64,000 bases of DNA from positions 87,705-151,704 of the forward strand of contig NZ_KE384306.1 of NCBI RefSeq assembly GCF_000425125.1. Direction: 5' to 3'. This stretch comes from Paenibacillus taiwanensis DSM 18679. Its GTDB lineage: Bacteria; Bacillota; Bacilli; Paenibacillales; Paenibacillaceae. Made by a program: the position numbers and the translations under genes. This document shows positions 8,657 to 61,331 of the stretch, piece after piece (the stretch's first letter is position 1; each line of letters opens with the position of its first letter). The notes beneath the pieces were generated by a model, which saw only the letters and a program-made list of their open reading frames with translations, was not told the DNA's origin and did not search any database.

Positions 8657-9556
8657 ATGGCGCATATGATGACAAGTATGGTGGAGGACCCCCGATTTGG
8701 TCGTAGTCTTCGATTGGACAATAAACGCTACACAATGATTATTCCGTTGGATTATGGGATTCGAATTATGCATTTTAGCCTGCGTGGTGGTGAAAATGTA
8801 TTGTTCCATGATGCAAAGGGGGACGTGGCTCAGTATGGCGAAGCGTTTCATAAAATGGGCAGCGACGGTTGGCTGCTTCGAGGCGGACACCGTCTGTGGG
8901 TTAGTCCTGAAGCTTATCCGCGCACGTATGCTCCAGACGACCAGCCTATTGAATGGAGTCCTACTGGTCAGGGGGTTGTGCTGACGTCTCCAATTGAGCA
9001 ATGGTCGCTCATCAAGAAGCAAATAGAGATTATATTTACCGAGGACCAGGTTCTCCTTATTCATCGTATTACAAATGAGGGCGCTTATCCGATACAGGTA
9101 GCACCATGGTCGATTAATGTGATGGCGCAGGGTGGAACCGCTATAATCCCGCAAACCAAACGAGAAACCGGTCTGCTGCCGAACCGTGCTGTTGTATTAT
9201 GGCCGTATTCACGAATGAATGATGACCGAGTAGTTTGGGGAGAAGATCATATTACGATTCGCCAGTGCCCTGATGCCGCTGGAGCATTTAAACTAGGCAT
9301 AGGAAATGAACCAGGATGGGCTGCTTATTTTTATAATGGAACCGCATTTGAAATTAGTCATGAGCATCAACAAGGTGCAGCATATCCAGATGGCGGCTGT
9401 TCGTTCGAATGTTATACCAATGAGCATATGCTGGAACTGGAGACACTTGGACCTCTGTCTACGCTGGAGCCTGGTCAGAGCGCATCGCATCAAGAATGGT
9501 GGCGTCTGGCAGCAGCATTAGATGTAGCGTCGTTTATAGCTAGTAAACAACAATAA
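8657..9556 (+). CDS. Aldose-1-epimerase-like (DUF4380-type) protein
   Basis: 299 residues with the beta-rich layout of the galactose mutarotase superfamily: repeated segments such as RIMHFSLRGGENVLFHDA, GWLLRGGHRLWVSPEAYP and QVAPWSINVMAQGGTAIIP. It resembles the DUF4380 group rather than canonical GalM; the classic NHTYFNL motif is not seen. As the last gene of the gal operon it may interconvert sugar anomers so that galactokinase gets the alpha form. This role is inferred from fold and context. A single strong terminator follows. Confidence 0.7.
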   Translation: MAHMMTSMVEDPRFGRSLRLDNKRYTMIIPLDYGIRIMHFSLRGGENVLFHDAKGDVAQYGEAFHKMGSDGWLLRGGHRLWVSPEAYPRTYAPDDQPIEWSPTGQGVVLTSPIEQWSLIKKQIEIIFTEDQVLLIHRITNEGAYPIQVAPWSINVMAQGGTAIIPQTKRETGLLPNRAVVLWPYSRMNDDRVVWGEDHITIRQCPDAAGAFKLGIGNEPGWAAYFYNGTAFEISHEHQQGAAYPDGGCSFECYTNEHMLELETLGPLSTLEPGQSASHQEWWRLAAALDVASFIASKQQ

Positions 9557-9581
9557 AGGCTGATTCAGGCAGCTGAGAGCA

Positions 9582-9610
9582 TAGACTTCCGAGTAGGAAG
9601 TCTATTTTTT
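9582..9610 (+). terminator. Rho-independent terminator of the gal operon
   Basis: TAGACTTCC (9582-9590) pairs perfectly with GGAAGTCTA (9596-9604) around a 5-base loop and is followed by TTTTTT. Confidence 0.92.
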
Positions 9611-9664
9611 GTTCAGAATGGAACTTTTGTAAGATCAAGCTTGCCCCGCACTTGTAATCGTTTC

Positions 9665-9693
9665 TTTACAACCCCTCTAAATGAATACATAAT
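9665..9693 (+). promoter_or_regulatory. Sigma-A type promoter for the lipoprotein gene
   Basis: TTTACA (9665-9670) and CATAAT (9688-9693) are separated by 17 bases, 60 bases upstream of the start codon. Confidence 0.65.
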
Positions 9694-9752
9694 AGAGTGG
9701 AATCACGATCTTTATAAAGTTTGTACCTATTTTGAAGGGGAGGAATGAGTAC

Positions 9753-11291
9753 ATGCGCATACGAGCAAGTCTAGCTGCTATGCTAGCAGCATTACTTATT
9801 GTACTTACGGGGTGTCAGTCAGTAGGCGGTGTAGATATTGGGGAAGTGGTTAACAAGACTGCTGACTTGAAGTCGGCGGAGACGAAGGAATCTGTGAGCA
9901 TTAAGCTTGATGTCAGCAAGGATGCCGAGTTAACGTCTGAGGAAAGCCAGTTTATTAACCTTATTAACGGGTTTCAGCTTGATATGGCAACAAAGATGGA
10001 ATCACCTGATCGTGTATCCTCAAGCGGCACGATCAAGATTGCAGGCAAGAGTGTGCCGTTTCAACTTGCAGTAGATGACAAGCAAGTGGTAGTCCAAGTA
10101 GAAGGCGGCAAAACACCGCTAGTTATCCCTGCAACGACAAAAGAAATGGAAGCGCTGGACATCCCGCAATTGGATGTGGAACAGCTAAAGCAATTCCGCA
10201 AATCGATGGTCAAGTTTTTCACTAAGCATGCCCCTAACCCTAAAGTAACAACAGTTACACCAGTTACGGAGCAAATTTTTGGCCAATCCCAATCCTTGAG
10301 CCAAATACATATGGAATTTGGTGCTGACGAAACGATTGGCTGGGTGCGCGGCTTCTTGAAGTCAATACTGGCAGATGAGCAAGGAACTAAAGCTTGGTTA
10401 ACAGAAGTCGGCAAATTGTATGGACCATTGGTTGGACAGTCGATGGAGGCATACGGTGTAAGTGAGAAATCGACAAATATGATAAAAGATGGAGAAGTAT
10501 TCGCTCTTATAGCATTTAAGTGGTTAAAAGAGAATGGAGAAAAATCACTTGATGAGCTGGATAAGGCTTGGACTCAAGTGGTTAAAGAAGATGCTGACAT
10601 GGCTGTTGTCCTCGGCAATAAGACGAAGCTGAAGCTGGATCTTTATGCTGATGCAGCATTAAACCTGAACAAAACGAATATGGAAGTAAACATAGCGTTG
10701 CCTCAATCTGAAGATGTTCCGCTCTCAGGAATTACGTTTAAAGCATCTACAGAGGTGAAAAGTCATAATTCGCCAGTTACAACTGACAAAATCAACACAA
10801 CAAATGCTGTGAATGTATTGGAACAGACCCTAACGCCAGGTCAATGGTTGCGTCATTTCAGTCCTGATTCCACGGTTCATCAGTTGTTGAAGGACGCGGG
10901 CATTTCACGCAAATATGTGGCCCTGCCGCTTGCAGAAGGCAAATATGACGATTGGTTGATTGATGGTCCTGCTCCTTTTGTAAAAAACGGCGTAACGATG
11001 GTTCCACTTCGTTATGTAGCTGAGCATTTGGATGCAGATGTAAAATGGGACAGCAAAGCGTCGCAGGCGCGTATCGTAGAGGATCTTACAGGTAAAGTAA
11101 TTATAATAAAACTAAACAGCAAGCAAGTGACGGTTGATGGCAGCGTTGTGACCAAGAAACTGGATGTCGCTCCTATCATGAAGGACTCCACCGTGTATGT
11201 GCCGCTGCGTGATATCGCGCAACTGCTGGGCGCAAAGGTAGGGTATGAGAAGGGCGAATACGTGAACTATGCAACAGTCACTAGAGACTAG
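9753..11291 (+). CDS. Lipoprotein with C-terminal copper-amine-oxidase-N (stalk) domain
   Basis: 512 residues. The signal peptide ends in the lipobox LTGC, so the protein should be lipid-anchored outside the membrane. Residues 20-350 form an unassigned secreted domain. The last ~110 residues carry the two repeats typical of the copper amine oxidase N-terminal-like domain (VPLRYVAEHLDADVKWD and VPLRDIAQLLGAKVGYE), common in Paenibacillus surface proteins and thought to bind wall or polymer. The ATG at 9753 is preceded by AAGGGGAGG nine bases away; an upstream in-frame TTG at 9732 is rejected. No enzymatic motif was seen. Confidence 0.85.
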   Translation: MRIRASLAAMLAALLIVLTGCQSVGGVDIGEVVNKTADLKSAETKESVSIKLDVSKDAELTSEESQFINLINGFQLDMATKMESPDRVSSSGTIKIAGKSVPFQLAVDDKQVVVQVEGGKTPLVIPATTKEMEALDIPQLDVEQLKQFRKSMVKFFTKHAPNPKVTTVTPVTEQIFGQSQSLSQIHMEFGADETIGWVRGFLKSILADEQGTKAWLTEVGKLYGPLVGQSMEAYGVSEKSTNMIKDGEVFALIAFKWLKENGEKSLDELDKAWTQVVKEDADMAVVLGNKTKLKLDLYADAALNLNKTNMEVNIALPQSEDVPLSGITFKASTEVKSHNSPVTTDKINTTNAVNVLEQTLTPGQWLRHFSPDSTVHQLLKDAGISRKYVALPLAEGKYDDWLIDGPAPFVKNGVTMVPLRYVAEHLDADVKWDSKASQARIVEDLTGKVIIIKLNSKQVTVDGSVVTKKLDVAPIMKDSTVYVPLRDIAQLLGAKVGYEKGEYVNYATVTRD

Positions 11292-57548: not shown

Positions 57549-58208
57549 TCAGCGAACCCCATGATCCCGAGTATGAAAATGAGGGTGGGCGAAAATAGAT
57601 TGTTTAATCAGGGTATAACAGCTGTTGTGTTTCCATGCGACATAGTTAAAGCTAAGCTGATCCCGCCCACTGAATACGACAATGTGATGCCACCATTGCT
57701 CCATCAAATAGATGACTTCCGGCTGATGATGTCTGCGAAACAGAACACCCGATGCGACGAGCCCCTGATGCTCAGGATAACCCGTCTCACGATAAAAGTA
57801 CATTTGCGGCTCAATAATGGAAGCGAGAGCAGGCATAGAATTGATAACAACCTGAGCCTCCTCGTAAATACAATCCCGAATAGGGTGTGTAAATACGGCG
57901 ACAGGGTGTTGTGCGAGATAGTTCTGAATGGAACTGCTTATGTCTCCTTGGGGAGTAAAATTGGCATCTATCCACACACTCGTATCATAGGTAGGAAACA
58001 GCAAGTGTGGATGGAGCTTAAACCAACGGGCAGTCTTTACGGTATTCTCAAATACCATTTCGCTCGGAATGACGTTCCAAACGGTAGTTGAAAGAGCAGC
58101 GGGATTATCCGTGTAACAAATGTAATCCATATCTGCATGCACTTGCTCCGGATCTCGCAGCACGTCTCGGTTTCCAAAAATTGCAGTGTATACAACACAC
58201 TTCTTCAT
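57549..58208 (-). CDS. DUF616 glycosyltransferase-like protein (TOD1/MUCI70 type)
   Basis: 219 residues. Starts CVVYTAIFGNRDVLRDPEQV and contains YICYTDNP, YDTSVWIDANF and VFTHPIRDCIYEEA, the DUF616 pattern found in putative nucleotide-sugar transferases; DAN resembles a metal DXD. GGGAGGTG precedes the ATG. Confidence 0.85.
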   Translation of the reverse strand: MKKCVVYTAIFGNRDVLRDPEQVHADMDYICYTDNPAALSTTVWNVIPSEMVFENTVKTARWFKLHPHLLFPTYDTSVWIDANFTPQGDISSSIQNYLAQHPVAVFTHPIRDCIYEEAQVVINSMPALASIIEPQMYFYRETGYPEHQGLVASGVLFRRHHQPEVIYLMEQWWHHIVVFSGRDQLSFNYVAWKHNSCYTLIKQSIFAHPHFHTRDHGVR

Positions 58209-58247: not shown

Positions 58248-58406
58248 CTAACCGGTAGGGATGCGTTTCTGAGTTGAGCGATGATAGTTGGTCAAAATTT
58301 TATCCAGACGTTTACTTAGTTTTAACATTTTACCATCGGTCAAACTAGTGCCTTCTCTATACGATCCGTTCATTAGGGAACGTAATTCCTCAATCTTCTC
58401 ATTCAC
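58248..58406 (-). CDS. Spo0E-like aspartyl-phosphate phosphatase, 52 residues
   Basis: GTG start with AGGGGTG seven bases upstream. The helical hairpin layout and the motif SKRLD (residues 31-35) followed by KILTNYH match Spo0E-like proteins, which dephosphorylate Spo0A-P and delay sporulation. The gene lies immediately downstream, on the same strand, of the regulator-pheromone cassette, separated by a terminator. Confidence 0.85.
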   Translation of the reverse strand: MNEKIEELRSLMNGSYREGTSLTDGKMLKLSKRLDKILTNYHRSTQKRIPTG

Positions 58407-58539
58407 TACATTTCACCCCTTATGAAGATGGGCAAGCCCCCTTGCGCCCACCAACTATATGTCAGTACAGCTTTCCTCGGGGTAAGTATATCACGAGTTT
58501 CAAATATTTATGGAATGCAAAAAAAAATGGGACAAAAGC

Positions 58540-58570
58540 AAAAACAGACACTTTTTTAGTGTCTGTTTTT
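58540..58570. terminator. Perfect 13-bp terminator hairpin
   Basis: AAAAACAGACACT and AGTGTCTGTTTTT surround TTTTT. It can terminate the minus-strand pheromone transcript and is symmetrical enough to act both ways. Confidence 0.88.
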
Positions 58571-58595
58571 ATAAATTTATGTCTAGTCTTGTTGT

Positions 58596-58730
58596 TTACC
58601 AAGGAATAATAATATTGGAGATGATTACTTGCTCGGCAGCAGAGCTTGTGGAACCATTTGAAACGACTGGTGCAGCGATGGAAAGAGTAAGAGCAACGAC
58701 CATAACTACGGCATTAAATTTGTTTCTCAT
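58596..58730 (-). CDS. Secreted signalling peptide precursor, 44 residues
   Basis: ATG overlaps the stop of the XRE-TPR gene (TGATG) and AAGGAG lies seven bases upstream inside that gene. N-terminal MRNKFN is followed by a hydrophobic signal core (AVVMVVALTLSIAAPVVS), a short polar segment (NGSTSSAAEQ) and a hydrophobic end VIISNIIIPW. This is the layout of Phr, NprX, PapR and Shp-type precursors, where a C-terminal 5-10-mer is exported, re-imported and bound by the TPR receptor. Candidate mature forms lie within the last ten residues; not tested. Confidence 0.75.
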   Translation of the reverse strand: MRNKFNAVVMVVALTLSIAAPVVSNGSTSSAAEQVIISNIIIPW

Positions 58731-60031
58731 CATACATCTCCTTCTTCGTAATCAACAATTTTTAAATACGATGCTATCAATTCAATTTTATCGATAATTT
58801 CAAGATTATCAAGTGTTTTGGGACTTTTACATAGATCGTTTAGTAGCACCCCTGCACCCTCAGAAACATTGGAACGTCGATCAACCGAAATAAAGATCAT
58901 GATGCTTTTCAGGAGGTAGTGTATCGTTTGATTGTGGTCCCTTGTTAATTTATAATATCTGCTTTTAGTAGCATAATAGTTTGCGTATTTAGCGATGAGG
59001 GCGGGGTTGTCCACTAACGTAATGTCCTCAAAATCTTGTTCGTGTTGAAATAATGTTTCGGCTGCTGCTAAATAGTTCTGTTGCAAATATAAATCTAGTA
59101 GATCATCCATAACAGCTATCTTAGGCTGATAACGCTCTAAACAGTGTTCAAATTGAATAATAGCTAAATCAATATTGCCCTTTTTCCCGTTTAATTTGGC
59201 TGTCGTAAAAGCTACGTGCTCTTGGACAAAAGGAAAGTTAAACTTATTTGCTGCTTTAATGTATTCTTCCGTCAGTTCGTACTGTCCGATTAAACAATAA
59301 CAAAAGGCCATACAACAGATTGCGTGCGCTTTAGATGGATTTTCAGACGTGTCCAGTGTTTCTAGTTCTTTAAAAAAACGGATGCAATCTCTGTATTTTC
59401 CTAAGTGGTATGCGTGGGCGCCAAGCTTATAATAATAGATAATTTGATCTTCCGTTTGAAGGAATCGTGCGTGGTGTAAAAGGTCTGTTCCTTTTGTGTA
59501 TGATTCTCGTAACTTCTTGAAGTTGTCCCTTTGGATGAGGTAGGTTTGGAGTAATGACATGGCTAGTAGAGGCCGAACACTGTGATCATCAGCAATCTTG
59601 CTAATGACTTGATACAAGGCCAGCTGTTGTGAGTTGTCCTGCAAGGAGCTGGTGAATTCATACAAGGTTTGTAAGGAGTCTTCGGTTGGTTCTCGATTTG
59701 TCGTGAGGTATTGGGCAGCGATCTTGGCCGTTAACTCTGTTGATGCGGATTGGGTGATGGCAAGTTTGAGCGCGTCTAGCAAGTAGTCAGGGTTCCTTTC
59801 TACCTCTATATATCGCTCGGTTACATCTTCAATGGGGATATCTAACACAGCTGCAAGGTCTAGGGCGACTTTGTAATCTCGTAATTTGATTTCTTTATTT
59901 TCGATTTTAGATATGGTGCCTTTGGATACGCCTGTTAATTCTGCAACTTGTGCCAGCGTCATTTGTTTCTGTTGTCGTTTATGTCGTATCAACTCCCCTA
60001 GTGTCATCGTTAGATTGGAGATAACAGTCAA
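58730..60031 (-). CDS. XRE-family regulator with TPR domain (RRNPP-type peptide receptor)
   Basis: 433 residues. An N-terminal helix-turn-helix (ELIRHKRQQKQMTLAQVAEL, then GVSKGTISKIENKEI) is joined to a long helical repeat region with TPR-like units (LGKYRDCIRFFKELETLDTS, IGQYELTEEYIKAANKF, NIDLAIIQFEHCLERYQ). This matches PlcR/NprR/AimR-type receptors, which bind short imported peptides and change DNA binding. The TTG at 60031 has GAGGTG six bases upstream. The gene overlaps its putative peptide gene and is divergent from a GH18 gene that may be a target. Confidence 0.85.
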   Translation of the reverse strand: MTVISNLTMTLGELIRHKRQQKQMTLAQVAELTGVSKGTISKIENKEIKLRDYKVALDLAAVLDIPIEDVTERYIEVERNPDYLLDALKLAITQSASTELTAKIAAQYLTTNREPTEDSLQTLYEFTSSLQDNSQQLALYQVISKIADDHSVRPLLAMSLLQTYLIQRDNFKKLRESYTKGTDLLHHARFLQTEDQIIYYYKLGAHAYHLGKYRDCIRFFKELETLDTSENPSKAHAICCMAFCYCLIGQYELTEEYIKAANKFNFPFVQEHVAFTTAKLNGKKGNIDLAIIQFEHCLERYQPKIAVMDDLLDLYLQQNYLAAAETLFQHEQDFEDITLVDNPALIAKYANYYATKSRYYKLTRDHNQTIHYLLKSIMIFISVDRRSNVSEGAGVLLNDLCKSPKTLDNLEIIDKIELIASYLKIVDYEEGDV

Positions 60032-60216
60032 CTGGTACACCTCGCTTATTGTTATATTCATAAACGGTTTGCCAATCCACCACCTACATATTACCATATT
60101 TTTTGGAGCATACCAATCATTTTAGTATGATGTCTAGCCGATACGATTGAATTAGTGCTTTGGAACTGATTTTTATGAACGATGTAGTATATGAAGCTTA
60201 TTTACAAAAATGTGAA

Positions 60217-60244
60217 TTGACGTTAATACTTATGTTCATATATT
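60217..60244 (+). promoter_or_regulatory. Candidate promoter for GH18 gene
   Basis: TTGACG (60217-60222), 16 bases, TATATT (60239-60244). Lies in the ~190-base region shared with the divergent peptide-receptor gene. No PlcR-box consensus found. Confidence 0.45.
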
Positions 60245-60290
60245 CTTTATCTACATTTCATATCTAGCATCCTTAGGAGGCACCACAAAC

Positions 60291-61331
60291 ATGAATATAA
60301 AAAAAGCGATCAAAATGTTAACGATAACTGCTACTATTGCCACTTTGCTTAACGTTAGCATTACTAAGATGGAGGCTGCACCGTCCCCGATCATCCTTGG
60401 TTATTACACGGTCGATTCGGGTGATTCATTTATTCAATTTCATAACTATATGAATCAGATGTCTACCGACACTTTTAACACGGACGATAAAGGTAACCTC
60501 GTTGGAGAAGTACCAAAAGAAACGGTTGCTTATGCCAATGCGGTGGAAGTATTACCTTATGCACTCGTATCCAATTATGGAGCCCGAGATTGGGACAGTC
60601 ATGCTGCACACCAAGTACTTACAAATAGAACAGCCAAGAAAAAGCTGATTCAAAATATGCTTGCACTTGCTGAAACGAACCATTACAAAGGTATTAATAT
60701 TGATTTCGAGGCGGTGCTGCCAGAAGATCGTCAGGCATTAACTTCATTTGTTCAAGAAGTGGCAGGCAAGATGAAAGCTAAAGGATTTCTCACGATGGTA
60801 TCTGTTCCCGCTAAAGCAGATGACGATCCAACGGATGATTGGACGGGGGCGTTTGACTTCGAGGCATTGGGAAAAGCAGCAGACATGATTCAAGTCATGA
60901 CTTACGATGAACATGGGGTATGGAGAAATGCTGGCTCCGTTGCCAGCAAGCCTTGGATAGAGTCTGCACTCCAATTTGCGATTACATATGTGCCTTCTGA
61001 AAAAGTGTTGATGGGAATCCCTACTTACGGAAACGATTGGAACTTATCGGATCCAGCCAATAAAAGCAACGCTCAAGTCATGTGGAAGGATATCCCGAAT
61101 CTGATCGCTGACACAGGTGCCACACCGATTAGAGACGAATGGACAGGTTCCATGTATTTTAACTATACAGATACAGATGGAGCTAGCCACGTAGTGTGGT
61201 ATGAAGATGAGACAAGCATTCTCCAAAAGACGCAATACATACACAAGTATTGGCTGGCTGGGGTTTCTATTTATGCCTTAGGGATGGAAGATTACAAGTT
61301 CTGGGAGGCTGTCTCGGCAGGGCTTCAATAA
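60291..61331 (+). CDS. Secreted glycoside hydrolase family 18 protein
   Basis: 346 residues. A signal peptide ends near MEAA at ~30. The GH18 catalytic segment GINIDFEAV has Asp138 and Glu140. MIQVMTYDEHG and the terminal WLAGVSIYALGMEDYKFW complete the barrel motifs. It resembles spore-cortex or wall-lytic N-acetylglucosaminidases (YaaH/YvbX-like) without LysM domains. TTAGGAGG before ATG. May hydrolyse chitin or peptidoglycan. Confidence 0.9.
   Translation: MNIKKAIKMLTITATIATLLNVSITKMEAAPSPIILGYYTVDSGDSFIQFHNYMNQMSTDTFNTDDKGNLVGEVPKETVAYANAVEVLPYALVSNYGARDWDSHAAHQVLTNRTAKKKLIQNMLALAETNHYKGINIDFEAVLPEDRQALTSFVQEVAGKMKAKGFLTMVSVPAKADDDPTDDWTGAFDFEALGKAADMIQVMTYDEHGVWRNAGSVASKPWIESALQFAITYVPSEKVLMGIPTYGNDWNLSDPANKSNAQVMWKDIPNLIADTGATPIRDEWTGSMYFNYTDTDGASHVVWYEDETSILQKTQYIHKYWLAGVSIYALGMEDYKFWEAVSAGLQ

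Follow-up and report, generated by a model that had tools for sequence, protein, structure and literature searches.

Cluster 8, or subfamily 08, of the RRNPPA peptide receptors of Paenibacillaceae was reportedly predicted by Bernard and colleagues. We equate cluster 8 of RRNPP_detector (PMC10075063) with subfamily 08 of FoldTree (PMC12700828), since in the excerpts of both papers the number and the bacterial family are shared. According to the same excerpts, FoldTree places subfamily 08 as the sister of AloR, in a clan with AimR, a DPG motif is widespread in subfamily 08 peptides (PMC12700828), and Brevibacillus laterosporus LMG 15441 has, on a plasmid, one AloR-AloP system and one cluster 8 system (PMC10075063). 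No experiment on subfamily 08 is described in the excerpted literature found on it. On the AloR side, an excerpt of PMC7425212 describes Alo13 of Paenibacillus polymyxa, whose receptor switches spo0E on and whose peptide, SHGRGG, switches it off. Here we describe a locus of Paenibacillus taiwanensis DSM 18679 (contig NZ_KE384306.1, 5.25 Mb genome) within a stretch of 64,000 nucleotides, henceforth the window, in which a receptor gene, a small secreted-peptide gene, a spo0E-like gene and a glycoside hydrolase family 18 (GH18) gene lie together. Judged from the sequence and a structure model, the locus very probably encodes a genuine peptide quorum-sensing cassette, which matches the RRNPPA superfamily and, within it, the predicted subfamily 08, but whose peptide ends differently, in PW.

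A predicted receptor-peptide-spo0E cassette

As a whole, the locus is best explained as a self-contained subfamily 08 cassette in which a peptide-gated receptor would control spo0E, a reading to which we give a probability of about 0.82. The original prediction, made from the letters of the window, had already proposed an RRNPP-type quorum-sensing cassette of four genes; all four were located where it had placed them, and its core stands on the helix-turn-helix (HTH) domain, the nine helix pairs resembling tetratricopeptide repeats (TPR) and the adjacent secreted-peptide gene. The features of the locus, in window coordinates, are as follows.

58730..60031, minus strand: receptor gene, XRE-type HTH and nine TPR-like helix pairs, 433 residues (Pfam, structure model, ratio of non-synonymous to synonymous substitution rates, dN/dS)
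58596..58733, minus strand: propeptide gene, 44-45 residues, with basic start, hydrophobic stretch and end EQVIISNIIIPW (conservation, count of open reading frames, ORFs, in the family)
58599..58619, minus strand: likely mature signal SNIIIPW or IIIPW, the last 5-7 residues, exact length inferred (C-terminal pattern of the family, conservation in the relative)
58539..58571, minus strand: intrinsic terminator separating the peptide and spo0E genes (folding z -6.12; sequence unchanged in relative G014)
58485..58501, minus strand: putative spo0E promoter element GAAAC-N6-TATACT (motif count against shuffles)
58248..58406, minus strand: spo0E-like phosphatase gene, 52 residues, GTG start at 58406 (PF09388, E 4.2e-8)
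60076..60097, minus strand: putative receptor promoter element ATGGTAATATGTAGGTGGTGGA, comprising an extended -10 and the start region (identical at paralogues; -35-like TTGGTA at 60111-60116)
60217..60244, plus strand: promoter-like site of the GH18 gene, TTGACG-16-TATATT (promoter scan; read by eye before the relative's GH18 gene too)
60291..61331, plus strand: secreted GH18 glycosidase gene, 346 residues, signal-peptide-like start, divergent from the receptor (Pfam GH18, E 6.2e-33)

The receptor gene starts with TTG behind a GAGGTG ribosome site, and its TGA stop overlaps the start of the peptide frame, which may be either ATG 58733 (45 residues) or ATG 58730 (44 residues). The latter is the better spaced and agrees with the start in the relative G014; the frame has the C-terminal end ...AAEQVIISNIIIPW. 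The promoter scan of the region gave 13 promoter-like sites against 9.1 expected, an Rfam scan for RNA elements gave two matches, both far below the gathering score, and the folding of the spo0E leader is not unusual (z -0.28). Judged at this locus, Paenibacillus sp. ACRRX is the closest named relative, with P. profundus and P. apiarius next, which puts the genome in the P. alvei group.

Pfam recognises HTH_3 in the receptor (E 1.9e-9) and TPRs weakly (TPR_2, E 0.029). The AlphaFold model, built on an alignment of 66 sequences (the window and 65 of 68 eligible locus rows), has a predicted local distance difference test score of 90.9 and consists of the HTH and, by our own pairing, nine helix pairs. 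The TPR fold, whose absence the original prediction had named as grounds for abandoning it, is accordingly present in the model, as is the TPR or TPR-like superhelical C-terminal domain characteristic of RRNPP(A) receptors; HTH plus nine TPRs is also the architecture of subfamily 08. The second superfamily trait, an adjacent gene for a secreted propeptide, is found too, secretion being predicted from the sequence. When the model was compared by VIA-align with the top 1000 chains from Foldseek, 956 of which aligned, NprR, Rap and AimR were among the best matches, alongside unrelated TPR proteins, and PlcR was among the aligned chains. The locus nevertheless differs from NprR-NprX and Rap-Phr of Bacillus, in that a search of PDB sequences with the single receptor gave no match; Rap has no HTH. 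It differs also from the AimR-AimP arbitrium of Bacillus phages, which serves the phage lysogeny decision with another peptide and target, the end-to-end alignment having a root-mean-square deviation near 19. PADLOC matches were limited to about the first 113 residues, and in PHROGs a near full-length match was obtained to phrog_32768, a family annotated without function.

Regulatory elements and candidate target genes

The spo0E-like gene is the likely target of the cassette, on the evidence of gene neighbourhood and by analogy. Of the 139 loci with at least 1000 bases of downstream sequence, 74 have a spo0E gene downstream in the same orientation and none has one there on the opposite strand; an upstream spo0E is found in 8 of the 146 loci available as a control. 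The proposed link between the spo0E-like neighbour and the cassette is strengthened by these counts and by the remotely related Alo13, where the layout has been linked experimentally (PMC7425212, in excerpt). The window genome has four Spo0E-like matches in all. Among the 44 upstream regions compared (the window and 43 loci with a downstream spo0E of assignable start), nine, including two near-identical pairs, carry GAAAC-N6-TAT(A/G)(A/C)T; of the spacings from 0 to 15 only 6 occurs, and shuffled sequences gave a mean of 0.01 and at most 1. The motif is found in none of 106 receptor upstream regions. In the window, GAAAC-N6-TATACT could be a receptor site beside a promoter that has no proper -35.

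A different element stands at the receptor promoter. The sequence ATGGTAAWATGTAGGTGGTNGA occurs exactly at the three full-length receptors identified in the window genome and at four among the matches listed for G014, and with up to three mismatches nowhere else in either genome; the element read backwards, allowed the same mismatches, gave two matches and one, against three and four, all without mismatch, for the element itself. Its 17-base core, again with up to three mismatches, lies upstream of 42 of 106 receptors and in 3 of 2120 shuffled sequences. Because the element is identical at paralogues that share only about 45% protein identity, a common regulator or cross-regulation of the receptor paralogues is suggested. 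We did not find an operator common to the receptor, spo0E and GH18 promoters: the element matches the window once, and its core is in 0 of the 44 spo0E upstream regions. A fourth receptor copy, broken into several frames, follows the full-length paralogue C2:900566 in tandem, at G000:C2:902198-903090 (about 9200-10140 of locus L042).

The GH18 orthologue (91% identity) is present in two of 19 genomes of the genus, those of the window and G014, and is divergent from the receptor in both; other GH18 matches listed in the genus have at most 36% identity. As a sign of a functional link this pairing is suggestive only, since it represents one evolutionary event, and the glycosidase is possibly a second target or a bystander. 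Among solved structures it comes closest to 5jh8, a probable chitinase (E 1e-56), and to GH18s of the sporulation type (YdhD, a cortical-lytic enzyme and YaaH), so that the role in wall lysis first proposed for it is not supported.

The alternative that survives best is that the quorum-sensing cassette is real but spo0E a bystander, the regulated genes being elsewhere (the receptor operon, the paralogues, GH18). For it speak the terminator that parts spo0E from the receptor-peptide operon, the location of the strongest conserved element at the receptor promoter and not at spo0E, the two paralogues of the same genome that have no adjoining spo0E, and the GH18 gene, which adjoins the receptor in both genomes that have it. 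We consider this unlikely, given the strong bias of spo0E to the downstream side, seen also in phages, and the spacing-exact promoter motif that precedes it.

Two observations concern the flanks of the cassette. A glycosyltransferase-like gene of the TOD1/MUCI70 type (PF04765, E 9.7e-20) adjoins it at 57549-58208 of the window on the minus strand. In G014, the stretch from spo0E to the next gene that the two genomes share has no listed ORF of 110 residues or more.

The small frame as a signal gene

The relative G014, whose receptor is 91% identical to that of the window, retains the order GH18-receptor-peptide-spo0E. Between the two, dN/dS is 0.10 for the receptor (433 codons), 0.24 for the peptide (44) and 0.06 for spo0E (52), and a count by eye on their alignment gives five base changes in the final 14 codons of the peptide, all silent, leaving the residues identical. 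To look at the wider family, 183 receptor ORFs (148 distinct, the window included) were collected from the genus of the window, named genomes, one plasmid and two phages, and the sequence behind each was passed through a filter that requires a ribosome site and a frame with basic start and hydrophobic stretch, and that ignores the C-terminus. A secreted-peptide ORF was found downstream of 102 of the 148; behind 258 other long ORFs the filter found 14. Among the receptor-linked peptides 54 of 102 end in W, as do none of the 14 controls, and in 38 of the 102 the peptide starts before the end of the receptor gene. The dN/dS of 0.24, the exclusively silent changes at the 3' end and the excess over control ORFs indicate that the small frame is more than chance.

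A receptor that senses something else, next to a small frame that is a chance ORF or a leader or membrane peptide and not a signal, is very improbable. The frame is short and known from sequence alone, and 46 of the 148 receptor ORFs lack one by the filter (these may be orphans, broken copies or filter misses), yet the pattern of selection, the rarity of filter-passing frames among controls and aromatic ends that track the receptor tree (see below) all argue against such a view. Loss of the frame in close relatives, which would have spoken against a signal gene, was not seen, the frame being kept in the closest one. The remark that the gene is too short for usual gene callers needs correcting, as some peptide genes of this kind do carry an annotation (WP_003338812.1 of pBRLA33 and the phage gene SUNDANCE_121).

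Relationship to subfamily 08 and to AloR

The plasmid pBRLA33 of strain LMG 15441 carries two receptors side by side, one of AloR type, with 44.9% identity to P0005 (the receptor of the AloP13 locus described below), and one, BRLA_RS22615, of the window type. The window receptor is 35.1% identical to BRLA_RS22615 over residues 10-357 of 433 (80%), covering 348 of the 432 residues of the latter. As the other pBRLA33 receptor is AloR type, BRLA_RS22615 is by elimination the probable cluster 8 member; the other plasmid match of the strain is of AloR type only. With cluster 8 the locus of P. taiwanensis shares a homologous receptor, the HTH with nine TPRs, an overlapping or adjacent secreted peptide and, often, a neighbouring spo0E, whereas the peptide ends differ: NIIIPW in the window, ...SDYDPGY on pBRLA33, ...TDDPGY in phage SecTim467 and ...TDNPGY in phage Sundance. 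In a survey that scored four candidates per genome, window-type receptors (E 1e-20 or better) were found in 20 of 394 genomes of the bacterial family; 17 of these belong to the window's genus, which is represented by 19 genomes.

The Brevibacillus phages Sundance (SUNDANCE_120) and SecTim467 have a window-type receptor together with a peptide and spo0E. In SecTim467 (L204, 2977-6412) the receptor of subfamily 08 type, its ...TDDPGY peptide and spo0E are directly followed by a second receptor, of AloR type, so that two signalling families stand within one phage region. Window-type receptors are also carried by six IMG/VR virus contigs (L224-L229), four with peptide ends of DPG/NPG type, one with HPF (L224) and one with an unclear end.

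The order of a receptor-peptide operon followed by spo0E is that of part of the AloR-AloP systems, though it is not specific to them, and our first guess from gene layout was membership of AloR. We searched the published AloP13 fragment in the 394 genomes and obtained three matches, one at 100% in genome G121, where the receptor P0005 lies upstream and a frame read as Spo0E-like downstream. Membership was rejected: the window receptor compared with P0005 gave a BLASTP E of 0.35, and G121 has 19 P0005 matches (some of them fragments) and no window-type receptor, while the window genome and G014 have no P0005 match. Both receptor types can coexist, since 10 of 19 genomes of the genus have some P0005 match. 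When profiles are compared, the two families do align (373 columns, probability 98.4%, E 5e-15), and by this measure they are remote kin and not the same family. Alo13 and the window thus share layout, HTH with TPRs, probably the same logic and a remote profile homology, and differ in lacking significant pairwise similarity and in the AloP code (SHGRGG, ...IGGA). That the cassette is an AloR-AloP system proper (Voichek 2020) is scarcely credible in spite of the common layout, bacterial family and distant homology, given the pairwise result, the mutually exclusive receptor matches of G121 and the window genome, the separate genes for both types on pBRLA33, and the 11 AloP-type peptides found, of which nine have GG or GGx at the end and none has W.

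Peptide endings and their distribution

Within the genus of the window (assigned by hand), 34 of 71 peptides end in PW, six in another W, 11 in PW plus a tail and three in EPGGW, and none is strictly DPG. Outside it, 20 of 31 end in xPG(H/Y/W/L), 13 of them strictly DPG; ends of this kind or EPGGW account for only 3 of the 71 within the genus, all EPGGW. IIIPW, INPW and HPW are common there, and the two full-length paralogues of the same genome have peptides ending in GVILPW and GVIVSW. As PW ends dominate, IIIPW is nothing unusual in its genus, but it departs from the motif published for subfamily 08, DPG, which the window peptide with its NIIIPW end lacks; that motif is common in the subfamily and does not define it. 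The ending had been singled out as distinctive, but the terminal W is a trait of the genus and not peculiar to the locus. PW endings are not described in the excerpts of the subfamily 08 literature found (PMC10075063, PMC12700828, PMC9765709), in a search that was not aimed at this ending; the propeptide lists of PMC10075063 may hold some.

On the receptor tree (106 rows, 86 with a peptide label, midpoint root) the endings follow the receptors, with 18 changes against at least 44 in 100 shuffles. PW ends fall in separate parts of the tree, which, under the midpoint root, suggests that the change to PW occurred repeatedly, and the endings DPGW, DTGW, GDGGW and EPGGW look intermediate between the DPG and PW types. 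More speculatively, and on balance doubtfully, the P. alvei group might have rewritten the subfamily 08 code from an ancestral D-P-G-aromatic tail to a hydrophobic -(I/V/H)xPW, probably at least twice, with paralogous systems of one genome sharing an identical promoter operator, so that private peptide channels would feed a common circuit gating spo0E and, here, a secreted GH18. In some loci, such as L055 and L128, the propeptide seems to contain a pair of signals (for example ...FIGPW...VYVPW and ...PSIPW...VIAPW), as though a single gene gave rise to two PW peptides.

Proposed mechanism and significance

In the subfamily 08 cassette that we favour, the receptor and propeptide genes would form one operon, and the propeptide would leave the cell by the Sec route and be processed to a short peptide from its C-terminus that ends in -PW. 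By what is known of the family, this peptide would accumulate with cell number, be re-imported by an oligopeptide permease and bind in the groove of the TPR domain. The receptor, binding DNA through its HTH, would at low density most likely drive the separate spo0E promoter; at high density, peptide binding would stop this drive, leaving less Spo0E, so that Spo0A~P would rise and sporulation or other Spo0A programmes could follow. This direction of regulation is taken by analogy from Alo13 (PMC7425212, in excerpt) and could be reversed. The element at the receptor promoter may be an autoregulatory or cross-regulatory operator, and GH18 may be a second target.

Subfamily 08 is a computational prediction, and this locus is compact enough to serve as a test case for it, having a short, hydrophobic peptide within reach of synthesis, a confident receptor model and two putative promoter elements. 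The DPG- and PW-type ends along the receptor tree form a natural data set on the joint change of peptide and receptor specificity, and the same data set bears on the proposed kinship of bacterial receptors with the arbitrium receptors of phages.

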